This document shows, piece after piece, positions 1 to 61,479 of a stretch of DNA of 64,000 nt. The translations under genes and the position numbers were made by a program. The DNA lies in NCBI RefSeq assembly GCF_014349155.1, contig NZ_JACSIT010000050.1:64501-128500 (forward strand), in the 5' to 3' direction. Each line of letters begins with the position of its first letter. Position 1 is the stretch's first letter. Source of the stretch: Neolewinella lacunae (lineage in GTDB: Bacteria; Bacteroidota; Bacteroidia; Chitinophagales; Saprospiraceae). The notes beneath the pieces are model-generated. The model was not told the origin of the DNA and searched no databases. It saw only the letters and a list, made by a program, of their open reading frames with translations.

Positions 1-2073
1 GTACCGCCAGACCAGGACCTCGCGGCCGCCACCAGCCACCTCCTCAACCGGCTGCAGCCCGCCAAAATCCCGACCCTCGGCACTTTCTCCGTCAAAGACC
101 ACGAACTGGTCCTCACCGTCTTTGGCCAGCTTTCGGACCTGGAACGGCGCTACTTCGGCGCCTTCCTCGGCTTCACCGCCCGCGAACAACGCCTGGCCAA
201 AACCGGCCAGCAAAAACTCGAAAGCATCAACGGACTCGCCTCGCTTTGGCTCGATGACCGTGCGGACAAAATCGAACGCTTCGAACTCCTCGATGGCCTC
301 TCTTTCGCGGGCTACGACCCCAGCACCTCCATCCTCACCCTCCTCCGGCCAGAAGACGACGACCGCCTGGTAAAATTCCGCCAGGGCGACATCATCGCCC
401 TCTACGCCACCCCCGCCAACACGGCCCAGCCCCAGGATACGATCCGCTCCCAGATCCTGAAATCCACCATCATTGCCGTCGACCACGAGCGCGTCCAGCT
501 CCGCCTGCGCAGCCAGCAGCTCAACGACACCGCTTTCCGCCGCCCGGCGTACTGGAGCATTGAAAAGGACGTCCTCGACAGCAGCTTCCGCAACCACTAC
601 CAGGGCTTGTTTGCCTGGGCGCAGTCCACGCCGGATTTTCGCCGCCGCTGGCTGGGTACCGAAGCCCCCCGGCAGGTGCCTCCTCTCCCCGGTGCCATCT
701 CGCCGGAGCTTACGACCGAGCAAAACCGCATCCTGCAACGCATCATTACGGCCCCCGACTATTTCCTCCTCTGGGGGCCTCCCGGCACGGGAAAAACCAA
801 CCAGATGCTGCACCATCTGGTACGCCACCTCCTGACCAACAGCGAAGAGTGCATCCTGCTGGTCGCCTACACCAACCGGGCGGTCGACGAAATCTGCGAG
901 AGCCTGGAGCGCATCGTCGGTCCCGACGGCAAACCGTTTACGGATTACCTCCGCATCGGCAGCCGCTACGGCGTCAATGCCCGCTTTGAAGACCGGCTTT
1001 TGCAGGTCAAAAGCAGCCAGATCAGCCGCCGCCAGGAGCTCAAGACCCTCATTGAGCAAACGCGCATCTTCGTTGGCACCGTAGCCAGCGTGGGCGGCAA
1101 GGGGGAGCTCTTCGCCCTCAAGTCCTTCGACCGCCTGGTGGTGGACGAAGCGAGCCAGATCCTGGAACCTTTGCTGGCGGGCCTCTTGCCGCTGGCCCCG
1201 CAGACCCTCTTGATCGGCGATCACCGGCAGCTGCCCGCCGTAGTTCAGCAAGGCCCTGAAGACACGCTGGTACACGATACTGCCCTGCGGGAAATTGGCC
1301 TGACCAATCTCGCCACCAGCCTCTTCGAACGGCTTTTCCTCACCGCCCAACGCAAGGGATGGCACTGGGCTTTCGACCGTCTTCGCCACCAGGGACGGAT
1401 GCACCAGGACATCATGGCCTTCCCCGCCCAACATTTTTACGGGGGCGAGTTGCACATCCTGCCGGAGACCATCGCCCACCACCGCGCCCAGCTCCTTCCC
1501 CTTTCCCTGGCATCCCGAACTCCTCCGGGACTATCGCCTGCGGCCGCGCCCAATACCACCGAAGGACCTTCCCCCGCCCTGCTGAACACCCTTGGCACCC
1601 ACCGCTTGCTCTTCCTGCCTACGTCGCCGGACCACCGGCAGGCGGACCCCAAAGTGAATGGCCACGAGGCCGATTTATTGGTGGAACTTATCCGCGCATT
1701 CCGCTCCCTTTACGCCCTTACCGACCGGCCGGTAGTGGCGGGCGACATCGGCATCATCACGCCCTACCGCGCCCAGATTGCCCACATCCGGCGCTCCTTG
1801 CGCGCCGCCGGACTGCCCCCGGAAGACTTTATGGTCGACACCGTGGAACGCTACCAGGGCGGGGCCAAACGCATCGTCCTGATTTCCCTGTGCACGAACG
1901 AAGACAAGCAGATTCAGATGCTTTCCCAGATCAGTGAGGAGGGCGTTGACCGCAAACTCAACGTGGCCATGACGCGTGCCCGCGAGCACCTCGTTTTGCT
2001 CGGCTGCCCCGCTATTCTGCGGCAAAGTACCGTCTACGCCGCCCTGCTGGATTTCATCTCCGGGCAGGAGTGA
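1..2073 (+). CDS. DNA2-like superfamily 1 DNA helicase, 3' part
   Basis: The frame is open from the first base, so the 5' end lies outside the window; an internal ATG at 607 is not the start because the same frame reads protein-like sequence upstream. Seen: Walker A (GPPGTGKT) near in-window residue 260, Walker B-like DEAS near 382, GDHRQLPA (motif III), TPYRAQ, ERYQGGAKR (motif V) and NVAMTRARE (motif VI). This order is that of AAA_11/AAA_12 (UvrD-like, DNA2/Upf1-type) 5'-3' helicases. No nuclease motif is visible in the part present; one could lie upstream. A diverged copy of the dispersed GGGCGC/CGCAGGTGC motif sits in frame in the proline/alanine-rich segment around 1534-1551. Confidence 0.85.
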   Translation, partial: VPPDQDLAAATSHLLNRLQPAKIPTLGTFSVKDHELVLTVFGQLSDLERRYFGAFLGFTAREQRLAKTGQQKLESINGLASLWLDDRADKIERFELLDGLSFAGYDPSTSILTLLRPEDDDRLVKFRQGDIIALYATPANTAQPQDTIRSQILKSTIIAVDHERVQLRLRSQQLNDTAFRRPAYWSIEKDVLDSSFRNHYQGLFAWAQSTPDFRRRWLGTEAPRQVPPLPGAISPELTTEQNRILQRIITAPDYFLLWGPPGTGKTNQMLHHLVRHLLTNSEECILLVAYTNRAVDEICESLERIVGPDGKPFTDYLRIGSRYGVNARFEDRLLQVKSSQISRRQELKTLIEQTRIFVGTVASVGGKGELFALKSFDRLVVDEASQILEPLLAGLLPLAPQTLLIGDHRQLPAVVQQGPEDTLVHDTALREIGLTNLATSLFERLFLTAQRKGWHWAFDRLRHQGRMHQDIMAFPAQHFYGGELHILPETIAHHRAQLLPLSLASRTPPGLSPAAAPNTTEGPSPALLNTLGTHRLLFLPTSPDHRQADPKVNGHEADLLVELIRAFRSLYALTDRPVVAGDIGIITPYRAQIAHIRRSLRAAGLPPEDFMVDTVERYQGGAKRIVLISLCTNEDKQIQMLSQISEEGVDRKLNVAMTRAREHLVLLGCPAILRQSTVYAALLDFISGQE
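1534..1551 (-). repeat. dispersed bipartite motif, copy 1 (diverged)
   Basis: Reads GGGCGC-GGC-CGCAGG on the minus strand, with two mismatches in the last three bases of the consensus. It is in frame inside the helicase and codes for PAAAP on the plus strand. Confidence 0.5.
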
Positions 2074-2256
2074 GTGAGTGATGCTACCGCGTAGCCAATA
2101 AATGAATAATTGACCGCCGATGGGCTGCTGCAAGGAATAAGCGGCTGGTTGAGGCATTGTACGCCGAAGGATGAACAGTTTCTTGCGTTGGTAGCCAACT
2201 CCTAACACCTACCCCGTGCGGCAGCTATTCACTCATTAGCCCATTCACTCATCCAA

Positions 2257-3357: not shown

Positions 3358-3449
3358 ACGCCAGCAGGATTTATTCCCCGCTTAAACCATCCGAAAAGCG
3401 AAGGTGTTGTATCCCCGTGCAATTTGCACCTAACTAAATATTTATCGTT

Positions 3450-3776: not shown

Positions 3777-3800
3777 TTGCGCGTCTTCCATAAATCAACG

Positions 3801-5411: not shown

Positions 5412-5425
5412 AATCTCTGGTTCGA

Positions 5426-7255: not shown

Positions 7256-7285
7256 GACGGAAATTCTTTTGGTGAGGAAGTTCAG

Positions 7286-7303
7286 GGCGCTGGCGCAGGT
7301 GCA
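7286..7303 (+). repeat. dispersed bipartite motif, copy 2
   Basis: GGGCGC-TGG-CGCAGGTGC, an exact match with a 3-base spacer, in the rpmD-rplO gap of the spc operon. Confidence 0.7.
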
Positions 7304-14441: not shown

Positions 14442-14459
14442 GGGCGCGGACGCAGGTGC
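14442..14459 (+). repeat. dispersed bipartite motif, copy 3
   Basis: GGGCGC-GGA-CGCAGGTGC, exact. Left arm of an inverted pair in the rplV-rpsS gap. Confidence 0.7.
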
Positions 14460-14530
14460 AGGGTCTGGCTTTCTGAAAGCGGAGGCGGCCTGGGAGGAGG
14501 ACGTTCACCGCTGTTAAAAAGACTTACCCG

Positions 14531-14548
14531 GCACCTGCGCAAGCGCCC
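14531..14548 (-). repeat. dispersed bipartite motif, copy 4
   Basis: GGGCGC-TTG-CGCAGGTGC on the minus strand, exact. Right arm of the inverted pair with copy 3. Confidence 0.7.
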
Positions 14549-21403: not shown

Positions 21404-21421
21404 GCACCTGCGTAAGCGCAA
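21404..21421 (-). repeat. dispersed bipartite motif, copy 5 (diverged)
   Basis: TTGCGC-TTA-CGCAGGTGC on the minus strand; the right half is exact, the left half has two mismatches. It lies between the oxidoreductase gene and the str promoter. Confidence 0.55.
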
Positions 21422-27956: not shown

Positions 27957-28091
27957 CGTGGGGTTGAGCCCAGCTACTGGTTTTCAACGGCCTGTAGTTC
28001 GGTAGTTTTGTAGTTCGGTATTGTCCACTACCGAACTACTAAACTACCGAACTAAAAACCATTGCGATCTAAGCACCTGGAAAGCGGCGGA
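27954..28091 (+). repeat. GTAGTTCGG-stem dispersed repeat, copy A
   Basis: Starts at the dnaE stop codon with TAACGTG then GGTTGAGCCC, contains GTAGTTCGG units on one side and their inverted partners (CTACCGAAC) on the other, so it can form a long stem, and ends CATTGCGATCTAAGCACC then GCGGCGGAT. Copies B and C share both ends. Confidence 0.75.
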
Positions 28092-28124
28092 TAGCTACGT
28101 TGCAGACCCCCAACCTAACGTTAC

Positions 28125-29333: not shown

Positions 29334-29470
29334 TAACGTGAGGTTTAGCCCTTGCAATAATCACAAATAACTGGTCTTCAACGGCCTTTTGAAGGTAGTT
29401 CGGTAGCGGAAAATACCCCACTGCCGAACCACAAAACCATTGCGATCTAAGCATCTGAAAAGCGGCGAAT
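29334..29470 (+). repeat. GTAGTTCGG-stem dispersed repeat, copy B
   Basis: Begins TAACGTG then GGTTTAGCCC, has GGTAGTTCGGTAG and CTGCCGAACCAC in the middle, and ends CATTGCGATCTAAGCATC then GCGGCGAAT. It has the fewest GTAGTTCGG units of the three. Confidence 0.7.
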
Positions 29471-29558: not shown

Positions 29559-30659
29559 ATCAAAATACTGATCATCGGACAGGGCCTGGCGGGCACGCTG
29601 CTCGGCTACCGGCTGGAGCGGGCGGGCTGCCACGTCGATTACGTCGACGCCCCGGAGCAGACGGCGGCCAGCGACGTAGCGGCGGGCATCATCAACCCCA
29701 TCACCGGCCGGCGTTTCGTCAAAAGCTGGCGCATCGATGAACTCCTGCCCGCCGCACGCGACCTTTACCAGGAACTGGAACGGACCTACGGGGTGAAAAT
29801 CTGGTACGACCTGCCCCTCGTGCGCAGCCTCTTCAACCGCGGCGACCGCAACGACTGGGAGGTGCGCTCCGCCGACCCTGGCTACGCGGAGTACCTGGAT
29901 GACCACCCCGACCCGGGCCGCATCCCCGAGCAAACCGTGCCGGTATTCGCCTACGCGGGCGTGCGACATACGGCGCGGGTAGACCTGGCTACGCTCGTGG
30001 CCGCCCACCGTAGCGCCAGCAGCGGTGCAGGACGCTTCCGGGCCCAGGCCTTCGATTACGCCACCCTGCCTGCGCTACTGGGCAAACAGCCCGCTGATGG
30101 GGCGCTGAACGCAGGTGCCCGCCCGGGTGAAGGAGCAGGGGCCGCCCCGGCCAGCGCCGCTCCTTACGACCGCATCATCTGTTGCGAAGGCTGGCGGGCG
30201 CGTTTCAACCCCTACTTCGCCTACCTGCCCCACGGGGGAATGAAGGGCGACGTATTGCTGGTGCGCACCACTGCCCCGCCGTTGGAGCGCATGTTCAAGC
30301 ACCGCATTTTCCTGGTGCCGCAGTCCGACGGCACCTACTGGGTGGGAGCTACGAGCGACAACCGTTTTGCGGACGATGCGCCCAGCCCCGCCAACTACCA
30401 ATTTTTGTCCGACCGCCTGGAGGAGCTCCTGACCGTACCCTACACGATCATTGGGCACCGGGCGGCGGTGCGCCCTACCGTCCGCGACCGGCGCCTGCTG
30501 CTGGGCAGTCACCCGTCCTGGCCGGAACTGCTGATTTTCAACGGCCTGGGGACCAAGGGTGCATCCTTGGCCCCGCTGGCTTCCCGCTGGCTGGCGGATT
30601 ACCTGCTGGCCGGGGCACCCTTGCCGGCGGAGGTTGACATCCAGCGTTTTGCCCCTTAA
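29559..30659 (+). CDS. FAD-dependent amino-acid-type oxidoreductase (DAO family), start unclear
   Basis: The frame from 29559 reads IKILIIGQGLAGTLLGYRL, an FAD-binding GxGxxG start in which the residue where methionine is expected is encoded by ATC. The next in-frame ATG is at 29793, far inside the domain. The C-terminal half has GHRAAVRPTVRDRRLL and NGLGTKGASLAP, typical of DadA/ThiO-like oxidases. Between them is an extra Ala/Gly-rich insert containing a copy of the dispersed motif (GALNAGA). The start is therefore an atypical codon, a sequencing error, or a true defect. Confidence 0.7.
   Translation: MKILIIGQGLAGTLLGYRLERAGCHVDYVDAPEQTAASDVAAGIINPITGRRFVKSWRIDELLPAARDLYQELERTYGVKIWYDLPLVRSLFNRGDRNDWEVRSADPGYAEYLDDHPDPGRIPEQTVPVFAYAGVRHTARVDLATLVAAHRSASSGAGRFRAQAFDYATLPALLGKQPADGALNAGARPGEGAGAAPASAAPYDRIICCEGWRARFNPYFAYLPHGGMKGDVLLVRTTAPPLERMFKHRIFLVPQSDGTYWVGATSDNRFADDAPSPANYQFLSDRLEELLTVPYTIIGHRAAVRPTVRDRRLLLGSHPSWPELLIFNGLGTKGASLAPLASRWLADYLLAGAPLPAEVDIQRFAP
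30100..30118 (+). repeat. dispersed bipartite motif, copy 6
   Basis: GGGCGC-TGAA-CGCAGGTGC, exact with a 4-base spacer. In frame in the FAD oxidoreductase, coding for GALNAGA in a low-complexity insert. Confidence 0.7.
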
Positions 30660-31461: not shown

Positions 31462-31556
31462 CGGTGGCCTTTTAAATGATGCAAGACCCCCGGGCGGCAA
31501 AAAAGAATTTTGGCATTAGGAGGCCTGTAACCCGGGCAGCTGACCGGGCGTGGAGA

Positions 31557-31623
31557 CTTCCCTTGCTCCCCATCCTTTCTCCCCCCTTCGGGGGGCCGGG
31601 GGGGAGCACCTGCGGCCGCGCCC
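31557..31623 (-). repeat. composite repeat, copy 1: GC hairpin joined to dispersed motif
   Basis: CTTCCCTTGCTC, then CTCCCCCCTTCGGGGGG and a G run, ending in an exact motif copy (GGGCGC-GGC-CGCAGGTGC, minus, 31606-31623). A second copy lies at 45219-45286. Confidence 0.7.
31606..31623 (-). repeat. dispersed bipartite motif, copy 7
   Basis: GGGCGC-GGC-CGCAGGTGC on the minus strand, exact; part of composite repeat copy 1. Confidence 0.7.
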
Positions 31624-34330: not shown

Positions 34331-35944
34331 ATGTCCGTTCCTACTTTTTCTCCCTGGTATCCGCGCCTGTTCTTTGGGCTCCTGTTGCTGGTGGGTTTGT
34401 GGGTGGTGGACGACTATGGCATTAGCTGGGACGAAGCCATCCAGCGTCGGCACGGCCGGGTGTCCATTGATTACGCGGCGGAAAAGCTGGGGCTGCCCCC
34501 TCCGGCCCTGGAGCCCGATTGGCACCTGGAAGACTACCAGTGGGCGAATTACGGGATGCTCTACCAGCTGACGGCCAACCTACTGGAACTCCAGTTCGGC
34601 TGGCAAGACGACCCTTACCAGTACTACCGCCTGCGGCACTACCTCAATTTTTTCCTGTTCTGGCTGGCCTGTTATTTTTTCTACCGGACCCTGCGTCTGC
34701 GCTTCCCGGCGCGCGACTGGTATCCGTTGGTCGGTACGCTGGTGTTGGTATTGAGTCCGCGCATCTTTGCCCACGCTTTTTTCAATCCTAAAGACCACAT
34801 CCTGCTGGTCTTTTACCTCATCAACGTTTACACCCTGCTCCGTTTTCTGGACCGTCGGAGCTGGTCCAACCTGTTCTGGCATGCCCTGGCGACGGGGCTG
34901 GCGCTCAATACCCGCCTGCCCGCACTGATTGTGCCCCTCACTACCGTGCTGATTCTGAGCTGGGAGATGCTGCGGGAGCGGCCGTTTTCCCGGCAGAATT
35001 TGTGGTGGATCGGCGCTTATCTGCCGCTTTCGGTGGTCTTTCTGGTGCCTTTTTTCCCTTACTTGTGGGAGGATACTTTCCGGCGGCTCTGGGCGGCGTT
35101 CTCGGAGATGTCGGACTTTGCCTGGGAAGACTACGTCTGGCTTTTTGGCCAGCAGCTCTTTGCGCTCGACGTGCCGGCCTACTACATTCCGGCCTGGATC
35201 CTGATCACTACGCCCATCATTTATCTCCTTTTTCTGTTCGTGGGGGGCTACGCGGCGCTCCGCCGTACGGTGGGAGCCTTGAAGAAGGGGCGGTTGTGGC
35301 AGGATGGCCCGGGCTTACTGGATTTTGCGCAGCTGGGCTTGGCGGTGGGGCCCATTCTGGTGGTCATCTTGCTGGGTTCCACGCTGTACAACGGCTGGCG
35401 CCACCTGCATTTTGTGTACCCCAGCCTCGTCTTTCTCCTGATGGTGGGGGTGGAGTACGGCAGGCAACATTGGGCGCGGCCGCAGGTGCAAAGCTGGGTA
35501 CTGGGAGCAGGGATGGCCCTGACGGCCGTGCAGATGGTGTACGACCATCCGCACCAGCACGTCTACTTCAACGCCGCCATCCAGGGGGAGCCATTGAACG
35601 TGCGCTTCGACATGGATTACTGGGGCGTGGGCTTCCGCGACGCCTTTCTTCAGCTTGCCCGGCAGGTGCCGGAGGGGGAAGTCAGGCGCATCAAATGCGA
35701 AACCTGGCCGTGCAAGGACAACCTGCTGGCCCTCCCCCCGGAAGCCCGCAAAAAACTGGTGTGGGAAGACAAGTGGCACCTGGCGGACTACCTGGCTACG
35801 CACTTCATTTGGCCGGGGACGCGCTACTACGTCCGCGACCGGATAGACCACTACGCCTACCCCGCCGTGGAACTCCGCCCCAGTGGCAACCTCACCATTG
35901 GCATTTATAACCTCAAGGTGCCCGCGAAACCGCAGGAGGAGTAG
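34331..35944 (+). CDS. GT39/ArnT-like membrane glycosyltransferase
   Basis: 537 residues with about nine hydrophobic segments. The early DDYGISWDE is the acidic catalytic-type motif found at the first periplasmic loop of lipid-linked sugar transferases; the pattern is of the dolichyl-phosphate-mannose mannosyltransferase/ArnT group. It would transfer a sugar from a polyprenyl-phosphate carrier to a lipid or protein outside the membrane; the acceptor is unknown. It contains one motif copy in frame (WARPQV at 35472). Confidence 0.75.
   Translation: MSVPTFSPWYPRLFFGLLLLVGLWVVDDYGISWDEAIQRRHGRVSIDYAAEKLGLPPPALEPDWHLEDYQWANYGMLYQLTANLLELQFGWQDDPYQYYRLRHYLNFFLFWLACYFFYRTLRLRFPARDWYPLVGTLVLVLSPRIFAHAFFNPKDHILLVFYLINVYTLLRFLDRRSWSNLFWHALATGLALNTRLPALIVPLTTVLILSWEMLRERPFSRQNLWWIGAYLPLSVVFLVPFFPYLWEDTFRRLWAAFSEMSDFAWEDYVWLFGQQLFALDVPAYYIPAWILITTPIIYLLFLFVGGYAALRRTVGALKKGRLWQDGPGLLDFAQLGLAVGPILVVILLGSTLYNGWRHLHFVYPSLVFLLMVGVEYGRQHWARPQVQSWVLGAGMALTAVQMVYDHPHQHVYFNAAIQGEPLNVRFDMDYWGVGFRDAFLQLARQVPEGEVRRIKCETWPCKDNLLALPPEARKKLVWEDKWHLADYLATHFIWPGTRYYVRDRIDHYAYPAVELRPSGNLTIGIYNLKVPAKPQEE
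35472..35489 (+). repeat. dispersed bipartite motif, copy 8
   Basis: GGGCGC-GGC-CGCAGGTGC, exact. In frame in the GT39-like gene, coding for WARPQV. Confidence 0.7.
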
Positions 35945-36308: not shown

Positions 36309-36326
36309 GCACCTGCGGCCGCGCCC
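36309..36326 (-). repeat. dispersed bipartite motif, copy 9
   Basis: GGGCGC-GGC-CGCAGGTGC on the minus strand, exact, 36 bases before the amidohydrolase start. Confidence 0.7.
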
Positions 36327-37471: not shown

Positions 37472-37640
37472 GTTGAGCCCTGGCAGTAATTATAGCTGGT
37501 TGGGGCTCAATGTTTTTTGGGAGATAGTTCGGTAGTTCGGTAGTTCGGTAGTTCTGTAGTTCGGTAGTTCGATAGTGGAAAATGCCTTGCTTGCGGACCA
37601 CAAAACCATTGGGAACTGACCACCTGAAAATCAGCGAATA
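37470..37640 (+). repeat. GTAGTTCGG-stem dispersed repeat, copy C
   Basis: Starts GGTTGAGCCC just after the amidohydrolase stop, carries about six GTAGTTCGG units in a row around 37525-37570 and ends CACAAAACCATTG then GCGAATA. It lacks the inverted partner block of copy A, so unit number and stem differ between copies. Confidence 0.7.
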
Positions 37641-38564: not shown

Positions 38565-39536
38565 ATGTACATCATTACCGGAGCCGCCGGATTCATCGGC
38601 AGCGCCCTGACCGCCCACCTCAACGAAAACGGGATAGAAGACCTGATTTTGGTGGACGACTTCTTACACTACCAGGATAAAACGCCAAATCTGGAGGGTA
38701 AAAAATTCCTCCGCAAGGTGGAGCGCGACGCCCTGTTTGCGGTGTGGGACGCGGAGCAGTGGCCTCTGCGCGGCGTTTTCCACCTGGGCGCCCGGACGGA
38801 TACGGCGCTGGAGGACACGGCCATTTTTGACCGCCTGAACCGCAGCTATTCTAAGGAAGTGTGGGAGCGTTGCACCCGCTTCGGCATTCCACTGGTGTAC
38901 GCCAGCAGCGGCGCCACCTACGGCCTGGGCGAACTGGGCTACGCAGACCGCCACGACATCGTCTCCCAACTTACGCCGCTGAACGAATACGGCCGCAGCA
39001 AAAACGATTTCGACGCCTGGGCGCTGGCCCAAACAAGTGCCCCACCCCACTGGTACGGGCTTAAGTTTTTCAACGTTTACGGCCCCAACGAGTACCACAA
39101 AGGCCGCATGGCCAGCGTCATCTGGCACACCTTCCGGCAGGTGAAAGCCAGCGGAAAAATGCAGTTGTTCCGCAGCCATCACCCCGGGATTGCCGACGGG
39201 CACCAAAGCCGCGACTTCATCTACGTCAAAGACCTCTGCCGCGTCAACCACTGGCTGCTAACGCAACTGCCCGAACCCAGCGGGCTGTACAATTTGGGCA
39301 CGGGGCAGGCCCGGACTTTCCTCGATCTGGCCACGGCTACTTTCGCCGCGATGGGCCACACGCCCGCCATCAGTTTCATCGATACGCCGGCCGATATCCG
39401 CGATAAATACCAGTACTTTACGGAGGCCGACATGGGAAAACTTCGCCGCGCGGGCTATACCGCCCCCTTTGCCAGTCTTGAAGAAGGGGTCGGGGAATAC
39501 GTGCGGGAATACCTTTTACCGGGGAATTACTGGTAA
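38565..39536 (+). CDS. hldD: ADP-L-glycero-D-manno-heptose-6-epimerase-like
   Basis: 323 residues. NAD-binding TGAAGFIGS at residues 5-13, YASSGATYG near 114, the YGRSK catalytic tyrosine/lysine motif near 140 and FFNVYGPNEYHKG near 168, which is typical of HldD/RfaD and separates it from GalE. It makes the heptose precursor for the inner core of lipopolysaccharide, in the cytoplasm. Confidence 0.88.
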   Translation: MYIITGAAGFIGSALTAHLNENGIEDLILVDDFLHYQDKTPNLEGKKFLRKVERDALFAVWDAEQWPLRGVFHLGARTDTALEDTAIFDRLNRSYSKEVWERCTRFGIPLVYASSGATYGLGELGYADRHDIVSQLTPLNEYGRSKNDFDAWALAQTSAPPHWYGLKFFNVYGPNEYHKGRMASVIWHTFRQVKASGKMQLFRSHHPGIADGHQSRDFIYVKDLCRVNHWLLTQLPEPSGLYNLGTGQARTFLDLATATFAAMGHTPAISFIDTPADIRDKYQYFTEADMGKLRRAGYTAPFASLEEGVGEYVREYLLPGNYW

Positions 39537-39551: not shown

Positions 39552-39569
39552 GGGCGCAGTCGCAGGTGC
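39552..39569 (+). repeat. dispersed bipartite motif, copy 10
   Basis: GGGCGC-AGT-CGCAGGTGC, exact, in the intergenic space after hldD. Confidence 0.7.
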
Positions 39570-43850: not shown

Positions 43851-43914
43851 CTCAGTTTAGTCTTTAATCCCTCTCCCTCGGTCCCTCTCCAAGGGAGAGG
43901 GATGACCTTTCGAG
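43851..43914 (+). repeat. CTCAGTTTAG repeat, copy 1 (interrupted by a MITE)
   Basis: 64 bases almost identical to 57436-57499: CTCAGTTTAGTCTTTAATCC, then a CCCTCTCC/GGGAGAGGG hairpin and GATGACCTTTCGAG. The sequence after the MITE (AGCAAAATTTTATTT) continues the match to 57516 and beyond. Confidence 0.8.
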
Positions 43915-43918
43915 TTAA

Positions 43919-44092
43919 GAGCGTGTCAAAATTTTTACTTCCTGATAACCAAGCAGTTTGCTACGCAGTACTTCGTGCTATGAACCTGGCGTCACAAAAA
44001 ATGGCTTACGTAGTCCACTATGCGCGCAATTTTTTGTCTAGCCAGAACCATAAGTCATTGATTATCAGTTCTTAAAAATTTTAGACACGCTC
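43919..44092. mobile_element. MITE copy 1
   Basis: 174 bases without a gene. The ends are inverted repeats, GAGCGTGTC...GACACGCTC, extending imperfectly to about 34 bases (…CTGATAACCAA against CTGATAATCAA). Flanked by TAA on both sides (43916-43918, 44093-44095), which fits a 3-bp target duplication. Nearly identical in the middle to 54895-55066. The transposase family (IS5-like, from the TNA-type duplication) is inference. Confidence 0.8.
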
Positions 44093-45108: not shown

Positions 45109-45218
45109 CGCATTTGACGCTGTTTGCGTCGGGAAGTAACGCCCACTCTTCGGTCGAGGGGCAGACAAGGCCGGTAGTTTTTCCGACGGAAGCGGGTTAA
45201 ACCAGCGCTGGCATGGTC

Positions 45219-45286
45219 CTTCCCATTGCTCAATGTCCCAACTCCCCCCTTCGGGGGGTCGGGGGGGAGCACCTGCGGCCGCGCCC
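45219..45286 (-). repeat. composite repeat, copy 2: GC hairpin joined to dispersed motif
   Basis: Same layout as 31557-31623: CTTCCCATTGCTC, CTCCCCCCTTCGGGGGG, G run, then motif copy 11 (45269-45286). It ends directly at the yidC stop codon. Confidence 0.7.
45269..45286 (-). repeat. dispersed bipartite motif, copy 11
   Basis: GGGCGC-GGC-CGCAGGTGC on the minus strand, exact; two bases from the yidC stop. Confidence 0.7.
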
Positions 45287-47375: not shown

Positions 47376-48173
47376 TCATTCGCGCCCGATCATTTCCCGC
47401 ACGGCGGCCCCGAAGCGCTCGTCGAGGATGGCCCGCCGGTGCCCCACGCCGGGCAGTTCCACGAGGCGGATTCTGGCGGGGTCAATGGCCGCGAGTTGCT
47501 GGCCCATGGCCAGGGGAATGAGTTCGTCTTCTCCACCGTGCAGGATCGTCACCGGCGCGCGGGATGCGGCCAGGTGGCGGGCATTGTCGAGGTCGTATTT
47601 CATCAGGAAGTCCGGAAAAAAGGGAAAAAATTCGTTTTTCATGGCCCGCAGGCTGGTGTAGGGCGCTACCAGCACCACGCCGCCGGGCGCGTTATTGGCC
47701 GCCAAATAGCTGGCCGGCCCCGTGCCCAGGGAATAGCCGAGGAGGAAGATCCGGTCTTCGGCGTACTGGCTTTTCAGGTGGTCGTAGACGGCTTGCAGAT
47801 CTTCCGTCAGGTGCCGCTCCTCCGCGATTTGGCCGCTGCTTTTGCCAAAGCCCCGGTAATCCACGAGGAACAGGTCATAGCCCAGTTGCTGGATGCTGCG
47901 CGTCTGGTGCAGGCTGCGGCCGTTGTTGCCTACGTTGCCGTGCAGGTAGAGGAAGACGCCTTTGGAGGGCGCGGAACGCAGGTGCAGGGCGTGGATGCGC
48001 TGGCCGTCGGGGAGCTCCACCCAGGTTTCAGGGTGCTCCCCGTAGGTAGCGTCCGCTGCCAGTACCCGGGGATGAAAGAGCAAGGATTCCTGCCAGAAAT
48101 ACAGGCCCACCCCCACGAGAAGGTACAGCCCCAGGCCAACAATCAATAACCGACGGATCCATTTCATAAGCAT
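47376..48173 (-). CDS. alpha/beta hydrolase, membrane-anchored (BEM46-like)
   Basis: 265 residues. One N-terminal membrane segment (RRLLIVGLGLYLLVGVGLYF), then the alpha/beta hydrolase fold with the nucleophile elbow GYSLGTG near residue 140, LVDYRGFGKSSG near 100 and the late DE/GVGHR region near 235-245. BEM46-type proteins are serine hydrolases of unclear substrate. It contains motif copy 12 in frame (LHLRSAP). Confidence 0.8.
   Translation of the reverse strand: MLMKWIRRLLIVGLGLYLLVGVGLYFWQESLLFHPRVLAADATYGEHPETWVELPDGQRIHALHLRSAPSKGVFLYLHGNVGNNGRSLHQTRSIQQLGYDLFLVDYRGFGKSSGQIAEERHLTEDLQAVYDHLKSQYAEDRIFLLGYSLGTGPASYLAANNAPGGVVLVAPYTSLRAMKNEFFPFFPDFLMKYDLDNARHLAASRAPVTILHGGEDELIPLAMGQQLAAIDPARIRLVELPGVGHRRAILDERFGAAVREMIGRE
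47967..47985 (+). repeat. dispersed bipartite motif, copy 12
   Basis: GGGCGC-GGAA-CGCAGGTGC, exact with a 4-base spacer; antisense in the hydrolase gene, where the coding strand reads LHLRSAP. Confidence 0.7.
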
Positions 48174-50552: not shown

Positions 50553-53500
50553 ATGAAACTCTCCGGCTTTCGTCTTCCGTTGCTGCTTTTTTTTGTCTGG
50601 GCGCTGGCGCAGGTGCCGGGGTTTGGACAAGGAGCCACGCTGGTCATTCCCTCCGGCCACGGCCTACCCGTCCGGGAGGTGCTGCTCTCGCCGGCCGGCA
50701 AAATCGTCGCTACCGCCGGCAATGATTACCTGCTCAAACTCCGCACCTACCCCGCTGGTAAGGAACTGCTCAACCTTCCCGTCCAGCGACAATTCAAGGA
50801 CATCGATTTTGCCCGCAACGACCGCTTTCTGGCCTACCTCACCCACCAGCAATTCGGCCTCATCAACGCCGAAAAAGGCACCGTGGCCTGGGCCATCGAC
50901 TACACCAAGGCCGAGCGCCTGGCCTTCAGCCCCACCGAAGACCGCCTCTACCTTGCGCAAATGGCCACCTGCCAAACCGGAGCGCCCCGGGGCAACGACA
51001 CCATCCGCCTGCGCTACCTCGACTACCTGATGCCCTCGCCCAAAATTCTGGTCCACCGCAATATTCTGGTTGACGTAGGCAACTTCGGCTCGGTTGATCT
51101 GATGAGCCTTTCCCCGGACGGCAAGTACCTGCTCGTGGCCGGCACCCAAAAGCAAGCCCTGTTGTTTGACCTCAGCAGCACCGCCCCGGCCCAGCTGCTC
51201 ACGGGTGCCCGAAAGTTCCTCCCCAACGGCAACATCCTCTACTGCCAGGCCAGTTCGGCCACCGCCCTGCACTTCGCCGCCAAAACCCCGCAGGGCAGCC
51301 TCGTCTGGGAACGGACGGCCGACTACGGCGAAACGATCTTTCTGACCGGTTACCAGGGCATGATCAGCGCGGATGCCACCTCGGTTTTCATCAGCGTTGG
51401 CAGCAAATTCCTGACGGAGCTCCAAACCGCCACCGGCATACTGTTGCGCAGCGGCCGGGTGGAAAGCATCGAAAAGCCCTTTGCCGTGGCGGTGGCCGAC
51501 GGCGAGACGCTGCTGCTGGGCGGACTGGACGAAGACACGGGCATTTCGCGCCTCAGTCGCCGCGACCACCGCGTGGTGGGCCAGCTCGGTCCCCGCCTCG
51601 TTGCCGAGCGCTTCGTCGATGCGGTAGGTAAGCAGCGGGGCTTGGTCCTGGCCGGGGCGCAGGGCCTCAATTACTGGACGAGCCTTTACGATCGCTCGGT
51701 CATCAACCTGCCGCTGTTGCCCCAGGGCCGGCGGCTCCAGGCGGCGGGAAGCCCCGACGGCAACTACCTGGTTACGTACGGCCCCGACCAAAGTAGCCTG
51801 CTGGCCAGCGGCGGCATCCTTTACCTGCGCAGCGCCAGCATCCTCGGCCAAACCCGTACACTGAAAACGCAGATCGAGCAACCCCACCAGCTGGAATTCA
51901 GCCCCGATAGCCGCCACCTGCTGGTGGGCGGAGTGGGGGGCCTCGACGTCTTTGCCGTAGCCGACGGACGCCTGGTCTTTTCTCAGAAATTCAGCAGCGC
52001 GCGCTTCAATGCCTTGAATGCTTTTTTCACCGTCAGTTACACGGCCGGACCGTCGGCGGCGTTCAGTCCGGATGGTAAGGAACTGGTTTACCTCCTGCCC
52101 AGGGCCTCGGGCAACAGCCTGCCCGAACGGACGCTGACGCGGGCGACCCTGGACGGAGGGGCGGTGAAGTGGCAACGGCAGGTCAGGGGCGTGGCCGTTC
52201 GCTGGCCCACGGCGGCGACGGTGGTACTGACCGAAGACGCGCCTCTGGCCCACCAGCGCCTGAACGCCGCCGATGGTTCGCCCGCAGGAGCGGCGTTGCG
52301 GGTGGCGGGGGACATTCCCTCGGGGCGCATTTTCGAAACCTCGCCTAACGGCCGCTACCAGGCGGTACTGGCCAAAGACATTCCCCGGCTGGACCTGATC
52401 GACCTCAACAAGGGCCAGCTGCTGGCAACCCTCCGGGATTTCACCTACCGCGTTGACGACGTCAGTTTCTTTCACGACGATTTTCTGGTGACCACCGATA
52501 TGGCGGGCAAAATGAAGCTTTGGGACGCGCGGTCGGGCAAACTGCTGGCCGACTTCCTCTTCTTCCAGGACGACAACGACTGGGCGGTGCTCAGCCCCGA
52601 AGGTTTCTTCGACGGCTCCGAGGGGGCACTGGCCAAGGCCTACTACCGCACCGGCAACACTTTTGCCCCGCTGGAGCAGTACTACGCCAACTTTTACGTC
52701 CCGGGCCTCCTCGGCTCCCTGCTTCAAAGGGCGCCCATTGCACCTGCGGCCGCGCCCATCAGCACCCTCAACCCACCGCCCAAAGTCACCTTCACCCTCG
52801 CCACCGATACGCGCAACCTCTACACGGAAGACGAGGCGAACGACGAAAAAATCCCCCGCTTCGAACTCTCCTCACCGGAGGTGCGCATCACCGTCAGGGC
52901 CGAAGCGCCGAACGACGTGGTAAAGGAAATCCGCCTGTTCCACAACGGCAAAATCCTGGGTGAAGGCAGCCGCAATCTGGTGGTGGAAGAAGACGTGCAG
53001 CAGGGCAACACGGCCGAGCGGACTTACCGTTTCCGGCTGCTGCCCGGCGAAAACCGCATCCGCGTACTAGCCCTGAACAGCCAGCTGACGGAGAGCAAGC
53101 CCAGCGAATTCATTGCCAACTACACGAGCGCGGTACCCGAAACGAACGATGGCCGGCCCGTGCTTTTCCTGCTCGTGGCCGGCATCAACAGCTACCGCAA
53201 CAGCAACTACGACCTCAGCTACGCCCAGCCCGACGCCGAGGCTTTTCATACTGCCATCCGCGCCGGGGCCGCCGGCATCGTGGAACGCATCGAAGACTAT
53301 TACCTCCTCAACCAGGACGCTACGCGGGAAAAACTGCTGGCGGCCTTTGCCGACATCCGCGCCAAGGCCCGGCCCCAGGACCTGCTGGTGTTTTACTACG
53401 CTGGCCACGGGGAGATGCCCTACGGGGCCGAGGGCGACTTTTACCTGGTCTTGCACGGCGTGACGAATATCTTCGCCGACGGCACGGGCAGCGCCCGGGC

Positions 53501-53930
53501 CCAGGGGCTTTCCGCCTCTGAGCTGCGCGAACTCAGCGGTGGCATCCTGGCCCAAAAACAGGTTTACCTCCTCGACGCGTGCAAAAGCGCCGGAGCGCTG
53601 CAGCAACTGACGCGGGGCGTGGCCGAGGAAAAAGCCATCGCCCAACTGGCCCGGGCCACGGGGACGCACTGGATCACTGCCGCCGGCTCCACCCAGGAGG
53701 CCCACGAGCTGGCCGAACTGGGCCACGGCCTGTTCACCTACGCCATGCTTGCGGCCCTGAACGGTGCCGCCGACGGCGTGAAAGACGGCCGCATCACCGT
53801 CAGCGAACTCAAAGCTTACCTGAGTGATCAGGTGCCGGAGCTGGCCCAGCGCTACCGGGGGGCGGCGCAGTATCCCAATACTTTTGGTAAGGGGCAGGAT
53901 TTTCCGCTGGTGCTGGTAAGGAAACGGTAG
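50553..53930 (+). CDS. exported caspase-family (C14) protein with beta-propeller
   Basis: 1125 residues. Signal peptide (LPLLLFFVWALAQVPGFGQ), then a propeller region of WD40-like repeats to about residue 720 (for example LSPAGKIVATAGNDYLLKL and WDARSGKLLADF). An Ig-like segment (about 745-860) follows, then the C14 peptidase domain. The catalytic histidine is in FYYAGHGEM near residue 950 and the cysteine in LLDACKSAG near residue 1010, so the active site looks intact. Two motif copies lie in frame (50599 and 52740). Such exported metacaspase-like proteins are of unknown trigger; not part of an obvious cassette here. Confidence 0.85.
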   Translation: MKLSGFRLPLLLFFVWALAQVPGFGQGATLVIPSGHGLPVREVLLSPAGKIVATAGNDYLLKLRTYPAGKELLNLPVQRQFKDIDFARNDRFLAYLTHQQFGLINAEKGTVAWAIDYTKAERLAFSPTEDRLYLAQMATCQTGAPRGNDTIRLRYLDYLMPSPKILVHRNILVDVGNFGSVDLMSLSPDGKYLLVAGTQKQALLFDLSSTAPAQLLTGARKFLPNGNILYCQASSATALHFAAKTPQGSLVWERTADYGETIFLTGYQGMISADATSVFISVGSKFLTELQTATGILLRSGRVESIEKPFAVAVADGETLLLGGLDEDTGISRLSRRDHRVVGQLGPRLVAERFVDAVGKQRGLVLAGAQGLNYWTSLYDRSVINLPLLPQGRRLQAAGSPDGNYLVTYGPDQSSLLASGGILYLRSASILGQTRTLKTQIEQPHQLEFSPDSRHLLVGGVGGLDVFAVADGRLVFSQKFSSARFNALNAFFTVSYTAGPSAAFSPDGKELVYLLPRASGNSLPERTLTRATLDGGAVKWQRQVRGVAVRWPTAATVVLTEDAPLAHQRLNAADGSPAGAALRVAGDIPSGRIFETSPNGRYQAVLAKDIPRLDLIDLNKGQLLATLRDFTYRVDDVSFFHDDFLVTTDMAGKMKLWDARSGKLLADFLFFQDDNDWAVLSPEGFFDGSEGALAKAYYRTGNTFAPLEQYYANFYVPGLLGSLLQRAPIAPAAAPISTLNPPPKVTFTLATDTRNLYTEDEANDEKIPRFELSSPEVRITVRAEAPNDVVKEIRLFHNGKILGEGSRNLVVEEDVQQGNTAERTYRFRLLPGENRIRVLALNSQLTESKPSEFIANYTSAVPETNDGRPVLFLLVAGINSYRNSNYDLSYAQPDAEAFHTAIRAGAAGIVERIEDYYLLNQDATREKLLAAFADIRAKARPQDLLVFYYAGHGEMPYGAEGDFYLVLHGVTNIFADGTGSARAQGLSASELRELSGGILAQKQVYLLDACKSAGALQQLTRGVAEEKAIAQLARATGTHWITAAGSTQEAHELAELGHGLFTYAMLAALNGAADGVKDGRITVSELKAYLSDQVPELAQRYRGAAQYPNTFGKGQDFPLVLVRKR
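50599..50616 (+). repeat. dispersed bipartite motif, copy 13
   Basis: GGGCGC-TGG-CGCAGGTGC, exact. In frame in the signal peptide of the caspase protein (WALAQVP). Confidence 0.7.
52740..52757 (-). repeat. dispersed bipartite motif, copy 14
   Basis: GGGCGC-GGC-CGCAGGTGC on the minus strand, exact. Coding strand reads APAAAP in the caspase protein, between propeller and C-terminal part. Confidence 0.7.
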
Positions 53931-53998: not shown

Positions 53999-54595
53999 AT
54001 GCTCAACCTCACTTACCCGTTAACAATCAAATTCAAGTTTGGCGTCATCAATCCCCAGTTTTCCGTCGTGGACGGCACCGGGCGGACGGTCGCCTTCGTC
54101 AAGCAAAAGGCTTTTAAGCTCCGGGAAGACATTAGCGTTTTCCAGGACGAGGCCATGACGCAGGTCCGTTACCGGATCAAAGCCGACCGTTGGCTGGACT
54201 ACAACGCCAGCTACCAGTTTACCGATGGCGAGGGCCGCGATTTGGGTCGCCTGGTGCGCAAGGGGGCCCGCTCCTTCTGGAAAGCCGCCTACGAGCTCTA
54301 CGACGAAGGGGGCAAGCAAGACCTGCTGATCCAGGAAGACAACGGGTGGGTGAAGGTAGCAGACTCCCTGTTCAGCGAGATTCCCTTCGTCGGGCTCCTC
54401 GCGGGTTATTTCTTCAACCCCAAGTACAACATCACCCGTCCGGACGGCACCAAGGTGGCGGTGTTCAGCAAAAAGCCCGACCTCATCAGCCGCGCTTTCG
54501 AAATGGAAAAGCTGGCGGGTTTTGAAGAAGGTGAGGAGGTGCGCATCATCCTGGGCACGATGATGATGGTGTTGTTGGAGCGGAACCGGGGGTGA
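53999..54595 (+). CDS. LURP-one-related (Tubby C-like) protein
   Basis: 198 residues. The pattern of alternating strands (NPQFSVVDGTGRTVAFVKQ, KLREDISVFQDEAM, then YNITRPDGTKVAVFSKK) is that of the LURP-one-related/Tubby-C fold, beta-barrel proteins of unknown function with a possible lipid-binding or scramblase-like role. It starts 68 bases after the caspase gene on the same strand, so it may be co-transcribed. Confidence 0.7.
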   Translation: MLNLTYPLTIKFKFGVINPQFSVVDGTGRTVAFVKQKAFKLREDISVFQDEAMTQVRYRIKADRWLDYNASYQFTDGEGRDLGRLVRKGARSFWKAAYELYDEGGKQDLLIQEDNGWVKVADSLFSEIPFVGLLAGYFFNPKYNITRPDGTKVAVFSKKPDLISRAFEMEKLAGFEEGEEVRIILGTMMMVLLERNRG

Positions 54596-54601
54596 TTTTA
54601 G

Positions 54602-54686
54602 TCCCCACCCTCGGTCCCTCCCCGAAAGGGAGGGATGACCCTCTCTGATCATTTTTCTTGTTCGAGGGAAATATTTTCAGCACCCA
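54602..54686 (+). repeat. direct repeat D, copy 1
   Basis: CCCTCCCC hairpin, GATGACCCTCTCTGATC, TTTTTCTTGTTC, then GGGAAATATTTTCAGC. Matches 54806-54888 with moderate divergence. Confidence 0.7.
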
Positions 54687-54805
54687 AAGTGAAGGAGGAG
54701 GACACTATTTCTGTGGATAGAGGTTAGAGCACAGCTGATTGGCAATCAACACCTTAAATCATAAAAAACTATCCGTTCAAAAAGTGTTGGCCCCAACCTA
54801 GTTTT

Positions 54806-54888
54806 ACCCCTCCCCGGCCCTCCCCACAGGGGAGGGTGACCCTCTCTGGTCTTTTTTCTTGTTCTAGGAAATATTTCCAGTAACCCAG
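54806..54888 (+). repeat. direct repeat D, copy 2
   Basis: CCCTCCCC/GGGGAGGG hairpin, GTGACCCTCTCTGGTC, TTTTTTCTTGTTC, then GGAAATATTTCCAG. MITE copy 2 lies 6 bases downstream. Confidence 0.7.
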
Positions 54889-54894
54889 GGCTAA

Positions 54895-55066
54895 GAGCGT
54901 GTCTAAATTTTTACTTCCTGATAACCAAGCAGTTTGCTACGCAGTACTTCGTGCTATGAACCTGGCGTCACAAAAAATGGCTTACGTAGTCCACTATGCG
55001 CACAATTTTTTGTCTAGCCAGAACCATAAGTCATTGATTACAGCCCACAAAATTTTAGACACGCTC
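54895..55066. mobile_element. MITE copy 2
   Basis: 172 bases, almost identical to 43919-44092 in the centre, same GAGCGTGTC/GACACGCTC ends and TAA on both sides (54892-54894, 55067-55069). No open frame of interest. Confidence 0.8.
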
Positions 55067-57388: not shown

Positions 57389-57728
57389 GTAAATGGGGAT
57401 GAAAAGCAGCTATTTGCTGCGCTGTATTTCTCGCACTCAGTTTAGTCTTTAATCCCTCTCCCTCGGTCCCTCTCCACAGGAGAGGGATGACCTTTCGAGC
57501 AACATTTGACAAAGAGCCAAATTTTATTTCGGCAGGATTGCTTTTGCGATCAGTACGAGGAAAGTTTTTTCAGTGTTGCTGCCAGGCGGTACACTCAAGA
57601 CGAATAAACTGAGCATGAATGGATAAAAAAAAAGAATCTGAACGCCACTATTTAGGTCGGAGAAGGAGTCAGCGGAGAGCTGCCTCCCCGTAAAAAAGCC
57701 AACACTACGCCAGCTTTTCAGCGGTGGC
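57389..57728. other. intergenic region with repeat R1 copy 2 and lspA terminator
   Basis: 340 bases. Repeat R1 copy 2 is at 57436-57499 with its continuation to about 57540, and a weak hairpin (AAGCCAC...GTTGGCTT, then TTTT on minus) at about 57686-57727 is the likely lspA terminator. No gene. Confidence 0.5.
57436..57499 (+). repeat. CTCAGTTTAG repeat, copy 2 (uninterrupted)
   Basis: Same 64 bases as 43851-43914 and then AACATTTG...AGCCAAATTTTATTT without a MITE, which makes it an approximate empty-site relative of copy 1. Confidence 0.8.
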
Positions 57729-58247: not shown

Positions 58248-58299
58248 GGGAAGCTTGGTTGAGCTTTATTTACTTGCGCACCTTCGGGGCTGCGCAGCA

Positions 58300-59652: not shown

Positions 59653-59658
59653 CGCGGG

Positions 59659-59666
59659 CAAAATTA
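59659..59666 (-). promoter_or_regulatory. putative near-leaderless promoter of the TlpA-like gene
   Basis: TAATTTTG on the minus strand, six bases from the ATG at 59652. Confidence 0.5.
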
Positions 59667-59812
59667 CGAAATTGGGGACGAGGGTGGCCGATCGCCGACC
59701 GAAAAGGAAACGCACAAGACGGTAAAACGACTACTTTCGCCGATTAATTGGCAGTGTCGGCCGACCTTTGCCAACCTCCGTCCTTCGATTCGGTTAATGA
59801 ATATTTAAGCTC

Positions 59813-59826
59813 GTCTCCTTGGAGAC
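59813..59826. promoter_or_regulatory. small palindrome before the 59845 gene
   Basis: GTCTCC-TT-GGAGAC, perfect. Nineteen bases before the ATG, so it could act on translation or bind a regulator. Confidence 0.3.
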
Positions 59827-59844
59827 AACCAACTCCTATCTCTT

Positions 59845-60330
59845 ATGTCTAAATCCAGTTCTCCTTTTGAACGTTCGCCCCTCGGTGGCATCGGTGGTTT
59901 TCTCATCGGCCTGGTGGTGCTCTACTTTTTGTTCAAGCTCGCTGGCTGGTTTTTCACCCTGCTGTGGTGGGCCGCGCCGGTCATTTTCGTTGCTTCGTTG
60001 ATCATCGACCACAAGGTCTTCCTGGGCTACGTGGGCAGCATCAAACGCCTCTTTCAGCGCAACTGGATCCTGGGGCTCGTCGCCGGCGGCCTCAGCGTAC
60101 TGCTCTTTCCGCTCGTCGCCGCCTACCTGCTCGCCATGGCCCTTTTCAAAAAAAAGCTTCGCGAGCGCGCCGTCGAAATGGACGAAAAAGTAAACGGCAA
60201 GTGGGCCGACTTTGAGGAAGTTCCCGAGGACCCTATGGATCTCGACATCCCCTACGAAGAGCTTCCCCCGGCCGCGGAGCCCGAACCCCGCAAGCGCAAG
60301 GACGATTCCTACGACGAACTCTTCAACTAA
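59845..60330 (+). CDS. membrane protein of unknown function
   Basis: 161 residues. Two or three hydrophobic segments (GFLIGLVVLYFLFKLAGWFF near 20-38, PVIFVASLIID and LVAGGLSVLLFPLVAAYLL near 90-108) and a charged C-terminal tail (EPEPRKRKDDSYDELFN). No family recognised. Its stop codon TAA abuts the start of the following glycosyltransferase, so the two form an operon. Confidence 0.6.
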   Translation: MSKSSSPFERSPLGGIGGFLIGLVVLYFLFKLAGWFFTLLWWAAPVIFVASLIIDHKVFLGYVGSIKRLFQRNWILGLVAGGLSVLLFPLVAAYLLAMALFKKKLRERAVEMDEKVNGKWADFEEVPEDPMDLDIPYEELPPAAEPEPRKRKDDSYDELFN

Positions 60331-61479
60331 TTGACCGCCCTCCTCCTGGCCGTTTGCGCAGCCGTCATCCTCACCTACGCGGGCTGGCAGCTGCGCAATC
60401 TTTGGTGGTGGCAGCGTTTGCCGGCGACGGAGGGCTTAGCGGCGGAGACGGGTCCCTTCATTTCCGTCGTCGTTCCCTACCGCAACGAGGGGGCCAATCT
60501 GACCCGGCTGCTGCGTTCTTTGGCCGCCCAGGATTATCCCCGCGACCGGTGGGAGCTTTTGCTCATCGATGATTTTTCGACCGACATTAGCCGTTCTGGG
60601 GCGCTCAACGCAGGTGCGGGGGAAGTCGCTGCGGCAGCAATGAAGGTCCAAACCCTCGCCCTGGCCGATCACTACGCGGAAGACGCCCTCGTGGCCCACA
60701 AAAAAGCCGCCCTCGCCCTGGGCATCCAGCGCAGCAGCGGCGAAGTGATCTTCACGACCGACGCCGACTGCGACCTGCCGCCCGACCTGCTCCGCCGCCT
60801 GGCCCGGAGCTTTCGTCCGGACACCGAGGTGGTCTTAGGTCCGGTGTTCAACGCGCCTGTGGTGGGCTTTTGTGCGGGTTTTCAGGCCCTCGACTTGATG
60901 GCTTACCAGTTCTTGACGGGCAGCAGCCTCGCGGCGGGCACCCCTACCCTGGCCAACGGCGCCTGCTTCGCCTTCCGGCGGCGGACTTTCGAGCGCGTCG
61001 GCGGCTACGCTGGCGTGGATCATCTGCCTTCGGGAGACGACGTCTTGCTGCTCCACAAGTTCCGCGCGGCCCTATCCCCCGCTGCTTTCGCCTGGCTGGA
61101 AACCGGTGTTCCCGTTTTTACCCAACCCGTAGTGGGATGGCGTGCGCTGTGGATGCAACGGCTGCGCTGGGCGGGCAAGGCCGGGCAGTACCGGGCCAAG
61201 GAATTGGAATTTGCCCAGGCGCTGACCTTTCTCTGCTGCCTTGCGGTCATTGCTCTTTTGTTCCTTGCCCTGCACCTGCGCTCCGGCGCCCCCTTGCTGC
61301 TCTGGCTCCCGAAAATAGCCGTGGACGGGCTGGGCCTGCGGGCGATTGCGCGGCGCTACGGACAGACGGCCCTGCTGCGCTGGTACCCGCCCACGCTGCT
61401 GCTCTACCCTTTTTTCCTGGTCGCGGTGGGCACGGCGGCGCTGCTGGGTTTTCGGGTGGGGTGGAAGGGGCGGGGGTAA
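60331..61479 (+). CDS. family 2 glycosyltransferase
   Basis: 382 residues beginning with TTG directly after the upstream stop codon. GT2 catalytic fold with SVVVPYRNEG near residue 47, LLIDDFSTD near 80 and DADCDLPPDL near 148 (donor binding), and hydrophobic segments near the end (LTFLCCLAVIALLFLAL and LLLYPFFLVAVGTAALLGF), so it is membrane-bound. It may make a polysaccharide or a lipid-linked sugar. Two motif copies lie in frame (60599 and 61272). Confidence 0.85.
   Translation: MTALLLAVCAAVILTYAGWQLRNLWWWQRLPATEGLAAETGPFISVVVPYRNEGANLTRLLRSLAAQDYPRDRWELLLIDDFSTDISRSGALNAGAGEVAAAAMKVQTLALADHYAEDALVAHKKAALALGIQRSSGEVIFTTDADCDLPPDLLRRLARSFRPDTEVVLGPVFNAPVVGFCAGFQALDLMAYQFLTGSSLAAGTPTLANGACFAFRRRTFERVGGYAGVDHLPSGDDVLLLHKFRAALSPAAFAWLETGVPVFTQPVVGWRALWMQRLRWAGKAGQYRAKELEFAQALTFLCCLAVIALLFLALHLRSGAPLLLWLPKIAVDGLGLRAIARRYGQTALLRWYPPTLLLYPFFLVAVGTAALLGFRVGWKGRG
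60599..60617 (+). repeat. dispersed bipartite motif, copy 15
   Basis: GGGCGC-TCAA-CGCAGGTGC, exact with a 4-base spacer. In frame in the GT2 gene, coding for GALNAGA exactly as in the FAD oxidoreductase. Confidence 0.7.
61272..61291 (-). repeat. dispersed bipartite motif, copy 16
   Basis: GGGCGC-CGGAG-CGCAGGTGC on the minus strand, exact halves with a 5-base spacer. Coding strand reads LHLRSGAP in the GT2 gene. Confidence 0.6.

Follow-up and report, generated by a model that had tools for sequence, protein, structure and literature searches.

A bipartite DNA motif, GGCGC followed after a spacer of 3–5 nucleotides (nt) by CGCAGGTGC, is dispersed throughout the genome of Neolewinella lacunae and recurs, in spellings that differ from genome to genome, in other members of the genus, where it is conserved at the level of DNA. 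The motif was noticed in a 64,000-nt stretch of contig NZ_JACSIT010000050.1 (positions 64,501–128,500), which is referred to here as the window. It is real and not a product of chance. Analysis of its layout, spellings and conservation suggests that it is probably a genome-wide tag of self DNA resembling an uptake sequence, in Bacteroidota; it is classed here as working like an uptake sequence, which is less than proven membership of the class.

A dispersed core with a one-sided tail

The pattern GGGCGCN{2,7}CGCAGGTGC occurs exactly 14 times in the window, against a mean of 0.01 in dinucleotide shuffles, none of which (0/100) reached 14, and CGCAGGTGC alone gives 18 matches where 0.85 are expected. 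The initial annotation of this DNA had reported 14 exact and two diverged copies, eight on each strand, at a frequency far above chance, and it was right in all of these respects: eight exact cores lie on the forward strand, and six exact cores and both diverged copies lie on the reverse. Its starting positions also stand, apart from 7286, which is really 7285. It had left room for a genome-wide frequency no higher than that expected of a GC-rich genome; the whole 5.8 Mb genome contains 1141 exact copies, which divide between the strands as 580 and 561, and not one copy of the pattern read backwards. On three contigs of ~100 kb, the two strands carry 14/15, 15/15 and 11/15 copies, and a similar balance is seen in every genus genome that is rich in copies. 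The motif therefore has no polarity of the kind shown by Chi or the FtsK-orienting polar sequences (KOPS), as had been proposed.

Counts of 15-letter cores in this genome gave 95 perfect copies, 17 copies with a single mismatch (12 of them at the first G) and 15 with two mismatches, as compared with 0, 0 and 4, respectively, in a Markov control; that is, perfect cores are commoner than one-mismatch cores, as is characteristic of uptake sequences. The spacer is 3 nt long in 90 of 100 copies, 4 nt in six and 5 nt in four. In a sample of 455 kb of this genome, comprising the window and 391 kb more, the upstream (left) edge of the element is sharp, and conservation extends on the downstream side only, where the right box is followed by A-R-N-G and then by a purine-rich, variably spaced tail of ~30 nt, so that the earlier statement that the flanks are not conserved is wrong on one side. 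The consensus to the right of the core comprises A-G-G-G-N-A-A-G-G and a more distal A-G-G-A-G-C-A-A-G-G-G-A, the spacing of which varies, and the purine fraction is 0.69 in the first 30 nt and 0.48 in the next 15 (86 sites). The full element in this genome is thus GGCGC-N3..5-CGCAGGTGC with A-R-N-G and the tail, and the degenerate consensus across the group is GGCG-S, a flexible spacer, CGC-R-GG-W-GC, A-R-N-G and the purine-rich tail.

In 25 of 103 copies, as counted with a loose pattern, the 60 nt downstream of the core contain a C/G hairpin. This hairpin, TCCCCCCCGRCCCCCCGAAGGGGGGA, lies between the core and the tail of many copies (for example, at 31547–31623 and 45210–45286, and in the rest of the genome sample), at times twice within one copy, and it is possibly a separate mobile repeat. 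An RNA hairpin of the form GCG...CGC, which the variable loop had suggested, was rejected because it is absent from the form of the motif in G010, the most distant genome of the genus, and because the orientation of the motif relative to genes is random.

As judged from gene positions assigned by a home-made codon-score gene finder, 62 of 93 classed sites are intergenic, though gaps account for 25.8% of its length, which corresponds to an approximately 6-fold higher density. There is no overall preference of orientation to genes: the four intergenic classes contain 19, 13, 15 and 15 copies, and the 31 copies within predicted genes comprise 13 in sense and 18 in antisense orientation. Seven of these 31 sit 21–54 nt from a predicted start, where signal peptides might be expected, one of them probably by virtue of a wrong start call. 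Neighbours less than 400 nt apart are always opposite (13/13 in this genome and 14/14 at other loci of the genus, some of which are orthologous), mostly tail to tail, and about half are separated by 60–90 nt, with distances taken from different reference points of the motif in the own-genome analysis and in that of the relatives. The number of close neighbours is near random (13 observed against 11.1 expected), and the coefficient of variation of spacing is 0.82 over 111 gaps.

Spellings and conservation in the genus

The best named match to the rplB of this genome, which belongs to the Neolewinella/Lewinella group, is from Neolewinella persica (90%). Among 40 genomes, the exact spelling is present in at least one copy in 20 of the 21 genus genomes (this one included), whereas outside the genus it occurs once in one genome of another genus and is absent from the other 18. 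The counts of exact copies within the genus span 0 to 1141 because the genomes use different spellings. When the boxes were relaxed to GGCGS and CGCRGGWGC, 19 of the 21 genus genomes contained 355–1439 copies in all spellings together, and the reversed patterns gave 0–10 per genome. The spellings CGCAGGTGC, CGCGGGTGC, CGCGGGAGC and CGCAGGAGC number 1273, 29, 1 and 6, respectively, in N. lacunae (G000) and 1223, 183, 4 and 29 in G005; the second spelling leads in G019 (193, 540, 11 and 10) and G012 (176, 406, 15 and 14), all four are common in G017 (268, 212, 149 and 258), and the third is the most frequent in G004 (81, 173, 430 and 164). These dialects follow the branches of a tree built from 19 protein alignments of 20 genomes (G009, with too little data, being left out): only G006 and the sister genomes G004 and G017 commonly have A at the W position.

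With relaxed boxes, the two low outliers are G001, with 20 copies, and G010, with five. Samples of 258 kb gave a diverged form in each. In G001 this is GGCGGCGGAGCGCAGGTAA, the 10-mers of which occur 12–18 times against 1–3 expected; in G010 it is TGGCT-NN-CAAAGTAGC-A-R-T-G, which is numerous, the 10-mer TGCTACTTTG occurring 64 times against 1 expected, and which alone has a clear T-rich left edge. All forms, including these two, have the same order of GGC box, spacer and right box, and A-R-N-G clearly follows the right box in every group profiled, G001 excepted. On the grounds of this shared order and likeness, the G001 and G010 forms appear to be homologous to the others. In other genera, samples of G021 (100 kb) and G023 (84 kb) contained no recognisable form of the motif, and other repeats were present; G021, which belongs to another genus of the same family, is abundant in the words GGGTCAATCGGG and TTGGGATCGTTGG. 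Among the titles and abstract openings listed by searches of the open-access literature on Bacteroidota (subscription journals and preprints lying outside these searches), none describes such a motif; the nearest is a study of Riemerella columbina (PMC7965970).

The motif is conserved in place. In alignments of orthologous DNA, the partner carries a mismatch-free motif of some dialect in 63 of 84 directional alignments and a motif with one mismatch in 10 more, although these alignments are only 67–86% identical overall; the count of 63/84 takes in rlmI and both directions of each genome pair, so that common sites are counted twice. The motif in rlmI, present in 15 of 16 genomes, was set aside as a case of protein-level constraint in the analyses of identity and gaps. 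At the remaining orthologous sites, with common sites again counted in both directions, identity is 90.2% in the left box and 91.8% in the right, as compared with 73.9% and 69.8% in the flanks, 74.7% in the spacer and 80.0% at random positions, and all 14 box letters are unchanged at 62 of 114 sites against 100 of 850 comparators. Boxes that are ~91% identical between flanks that are ~72% identical indicate that the constraint acts on the DNA. The tail is kept as a consensus only, with 71.7% identity in its first four letters.

Alignments of 49 coding gene groups yielded 67 matches at 31 sites, nine of which are common to at least two genomes. One site, in a gene adjoining yidC at the peptide APALPPS, has the motif in five of nine genomes. 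At this site, G004 has CGCGGGAGC, G017 has CGCAGGAGC and G008 has CGCGGGTGC; all three encode the same peptide, and the changes between them are synonymous. The GGAGC form is confined to the two genomes that use GGAGC genome-wide, and the match to genome preference is imperfect in that G008 and G016 carry their second commonest spelling. Among non-coding sites, an inverted pair occupies the S19–L22 gap in nine of 19 genus genomes, its arms largely kept and its interiors diverged.

Copies in the window, other repeats and viral contigs

Several copies in the window lie in gaps between genes. An exact core at 7285..7302 (+) is directly 5′ of the coding region of rplO (L15), the predicted start of which (7315) is probably set too far upstream. 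The S19–L22 gap of the ribosomal operon holds the inverted, tail-to-tail pair at 14442..14548 (cores at 14442–14459 on the forward and 14531–14548 on the reverse strand). A diverged copy with a degraded left box (21404..21421, −) and an exact core that is separated from its tail by the C/G hairpin (31606..31623, −) lie in further gaps; exact cores are also found at 36309..36326 (−), 45 nt from the start of the gene at 36362, and at 39552..39569 (+), 24 nt 3′ of a gene ending at 39536. The exact core at 45269..45286 (−), which is likewise followed by the C/G hairpin and then the tail, lies one base past the yidC stop codon, and inspection by eye located the motif or a close variant within 140 nt of this stop in nine of nine clade-1 genomes.

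Other copies lie within genes. A diverged copy with the right box CGCAGGCGA (1534..1551, −) is within the gene at 607–2073, and an exact core (35472..35489, +) is inside a PMT_2 glycosyltransferase gene (34331–35944). The exact core at 30100..30118 (+) sits in a linker of species-variable length in an FAD-dependent oxidoreductase gene (29793–30659); comparison with some relatives gave a first impression of an insertion, which was abandoned because the linker varies in length there in many species. At 47967..47985 (+), an exact core is antisense in an alpha/beta hydrolase gene (47376–48167), and the alignment is ungapped in all seven orthologues that lack the motif. A WD40/caspase gene (50553–53930) contains two exact cores, one near its start in a putative signal peptide (50599..50616, +) and one in antisense orientation (52740..52757, −). 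A family-2 glycosyltransferase gene (60331–61479) likewise contains two, at 60599..60617 (+), where eight of 14 orthologues have the motif at the same place, and at 61272..61291 (−), in antisense orientation, where four of 14 have it with at most one mismatch.

The window also contains repeats of other kinds. Units of GTAGTTCGGTAG in inverted order, a second repeat family of the repetitive extragenic palindromic (REP) type, are present at 27985–28092, 29394–29470 and 37512–37639, and in G002 and G014 a Y1_Tnp gene resembling REP-associated tyrosine transposases (RAYT) lies between stretches matching the dnaE and rlmI of the place of this repeat (L068, L082). Near-identical dispersed repeats of 64–149 nt with a CCCTCTCC...GGAGAGGG palindrome are found at 43851–44064, 54584–55040 and 57436–57499. 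The over-represented words AATGCGTGAA / ATTCACTCAT and TAGTTCATAG number ~25–32 copies in the 455-kb sample and are apparently parts of other repeats.

Matches on viral contigs were found in at least 120 stretches, of which 80 were analysed. These contain 100 sites. The tails of 37 exceed the 95th percentile of the background, by a score that was evaluated on the sites used to train it, and the remaining viral sites look like chance matches. Contig IMGVR_UViG_3300012037_000001 carries five native-looking copies in 22 kb (L337, L346) and encodes a tape-measure protein (L337), and contig 3300009467_000002 carries three in 18 kb (L301, L348).

Functional readings of the motif

The uptake sequence was among the possibilities raised by the initial annotation, and it is the best fit found. 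The uptake signal sequences (USS) of Pasteurellaceae such as Haemophilus influenzae, as set out in PMC1626085, have a strong asymmetric core with weaker conserved 3′ segments, occur equally on both strands with a preference for non-coding DNA, form close pairs in opposite orientation, are more often perfect than singly mismatched, and have cores specific to subclades; the motif described here shares all of these features. The DNA uptake sequences (DUS) of Neisseriaceae likewise vary in spelling around one motif, and each spelling abounds in the genomes to which it belongs and is distributed according to the phylogeny (PMC3630211). The absence of orientation, the all-or-none consensus, the lineage-wise respelling in place and the tolerated placement of the motif match these published hallmarks and support a function like that of an uptake sequence. 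In one feasible mechanism, the motif in double-stranded DNA would be recognised by a DNA receptor belonging to the natural-transformation machinery, DNA in the local spelling would be preferentially taken up and recombined, and copies would thereby be imposed again on the chromosome in every place that tolerates them. A change in the specificity of the receptor would then cause the sites to drift to a new spelling, giving rise to the dialects. On a slight balance of probability, the motif would represent a third, independent origin of uptake sequences, in Bacteroidota, this one bipartite and flexible, with several spellings inside one genus and a receptor that would not have to be a type IV pilin, and borne by phages of such hosts too.

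The motif also differs from both systems. Its core is bipartite with a 3–5 nt spacer and its tail is purine-rich, whereas the USS tail is AT-rich; its host belongs to Bacteroidota. DUS are 10–12 nt long, have neither flanking motifs nor a flexible spacer, and have a function shown by transformation. Several of the results weigh against an uptake function. The flexible spacer has no counterpart among the uptake sequences consulted in the literature. The density, 1 per 4.4 kb (1309 copies in four spellings in 5.8 Mb), is below the ~1 per kb of known uptake sequences (PMC1626085). Codon-atypical genes are not poorer in sites, with 0.331, 0.302, 0.255 and 0.349 sites/kb from the lowest to the highest quartile. 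A domain search detected comEC, the gene for the channel of natural competence, once in each of the 21 genus genomes, as would suit uptake, but also in 10 of 14 control genomes, and comEC is therefore not specific. Native-looking copies are present on at least two phage contigs, and a shared role inside the cell, or a long stay in the host, would account for them as well as uptake would. Lastly, uptake sites have been argued to evolve by point mutation (PMC1939737). In the regions around four genes to which the comparison of gaps was limited, seven of 14 coding sites are in ungapped alignment (comparators 0/40), and the other half lie in indel-rich stretches (comparators 63/76; 63/116 for the coding comparators together, against 14% of random blocks), for which reason some coding sites may have originated by insertion.

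Other explanations account for part of these observations. The motif could be an intracellular site for DNA processing or chromosome organisation (a recombination hotspot, or a site for a nucleoid or segregation protein), the binder of which changed its specificity between species. This is an unlikely explanation, though the least so among the alternatives: conservation at the DNA level and dialects suit any DNA-binding protein, phages carry Chi-like sites just as the phage contigs carry native-looking copies, and codon-atypical genes are not depleted. Chi and KOPS are genome-wide oligonucleotides read by DNA-processing proteins, and the motif resembles them as a genome-wide DNA word; however, it has no strand polarity, and with 14–18 specified letters and a tail it is long for a Chi-like site. 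Moreover, its consensus, with 95 perfect against 17 one-mismatch copies, is far sharper than that of a typical intracellular regulator, an argument made for USS in PMC1626085. Another genome-wide word, the highly iterated palindrome HIP1, was invoked by the initial annotation. HIP1 is an 8-bp palindrome that is highly abundant and present in cyanobacterial coding DNA, and the motif is comparable in its abundance and its coding copies; the likeness nevertheless fails, because the motif is asymmetric, lacking a palindromic core, and bipartite, and its spelling changes between species.

It is distinctly improbable that the motif is a family of repeats that multiplied by copying, with a RAYT transposase as one possible agent, in the manner of REP sequences, bacterial interspersed mosaic elements (BIME) or miniature inverted-repeat transposable elements. 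Like REP/BIME, it occurs in hundreds of short dispersed copies, often as inverted pairs in gaps. The sharp left edge, the mostly tail-to-tail arrangement of close pairs, the same C/G hairpin in 25 of 103 copies, the coding sites in indel-rich stretches, and an intergenic site of G004 that is gone from G017 along with its surroundings would all suit copying, and RAYT-like genes (PF01797) are present in 16 of 16 genus genomes searched. On the other hand, this genome has two RAYT hits, and the 3.3 kb (L071) surrounding the better one, the only hit examined, contains no motif, the window holds a separate, GTAG-type repeat family, and the number of RAYT hits is by eye unrelated to the number of copies (two hits and 1309 copies in G000, four and 20 in G001). 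Conservation in place, synonymous change of dialect in coding DNA and the seven coding sites without any gap also speak against copying, as does the sharp contrast in conservation between core and tail, which is not expected from a recent burst of a fixed element. A transcription signal (a promoter whose start is conserved, a terminator or a 3′-end RNA hairpin) is more improbable still. The reverse complement in the S19–L22 gap, TACCTTTG-CACC, resembles the Bacteroidota −7 box, TAnnTTTG, but this box is absent from most copies, so that a promoter would fit some copies only. Of the intergenic copies, 19 + 13 of 62 face away from a gene end, often 9–55 nt past the stop codon, and the inverted pairs could form hairpins; against this stand the absence of any overall orientation to genes and the absence from the window of any Rfam family at the gathering score. 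Chance or a GC-rich composition is scarcely credible, in view of the shuffles and of the reversed patterns both in this genome and in the dialect searches.

The observation made in the initial annotation was right and indeed understated, and its interpretation is partly supported. If the motif is an uptake-sequence-like tag, the Bacteroidota example would imply that tag-based mate recognition arose more than twice, and ~20 related genomes with differing spellings could be used to find the receptor by co-variation. It would also bear on Riemerella columbina, another member of the Bacteroidota, which prefers its own DNA and for which over-represented k-mers but no proven tag are given in PMC7965970. 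Should the function of the motif be intracellular instead, a chromosomal code of this length, with dialects by species, would be unusual all the same.

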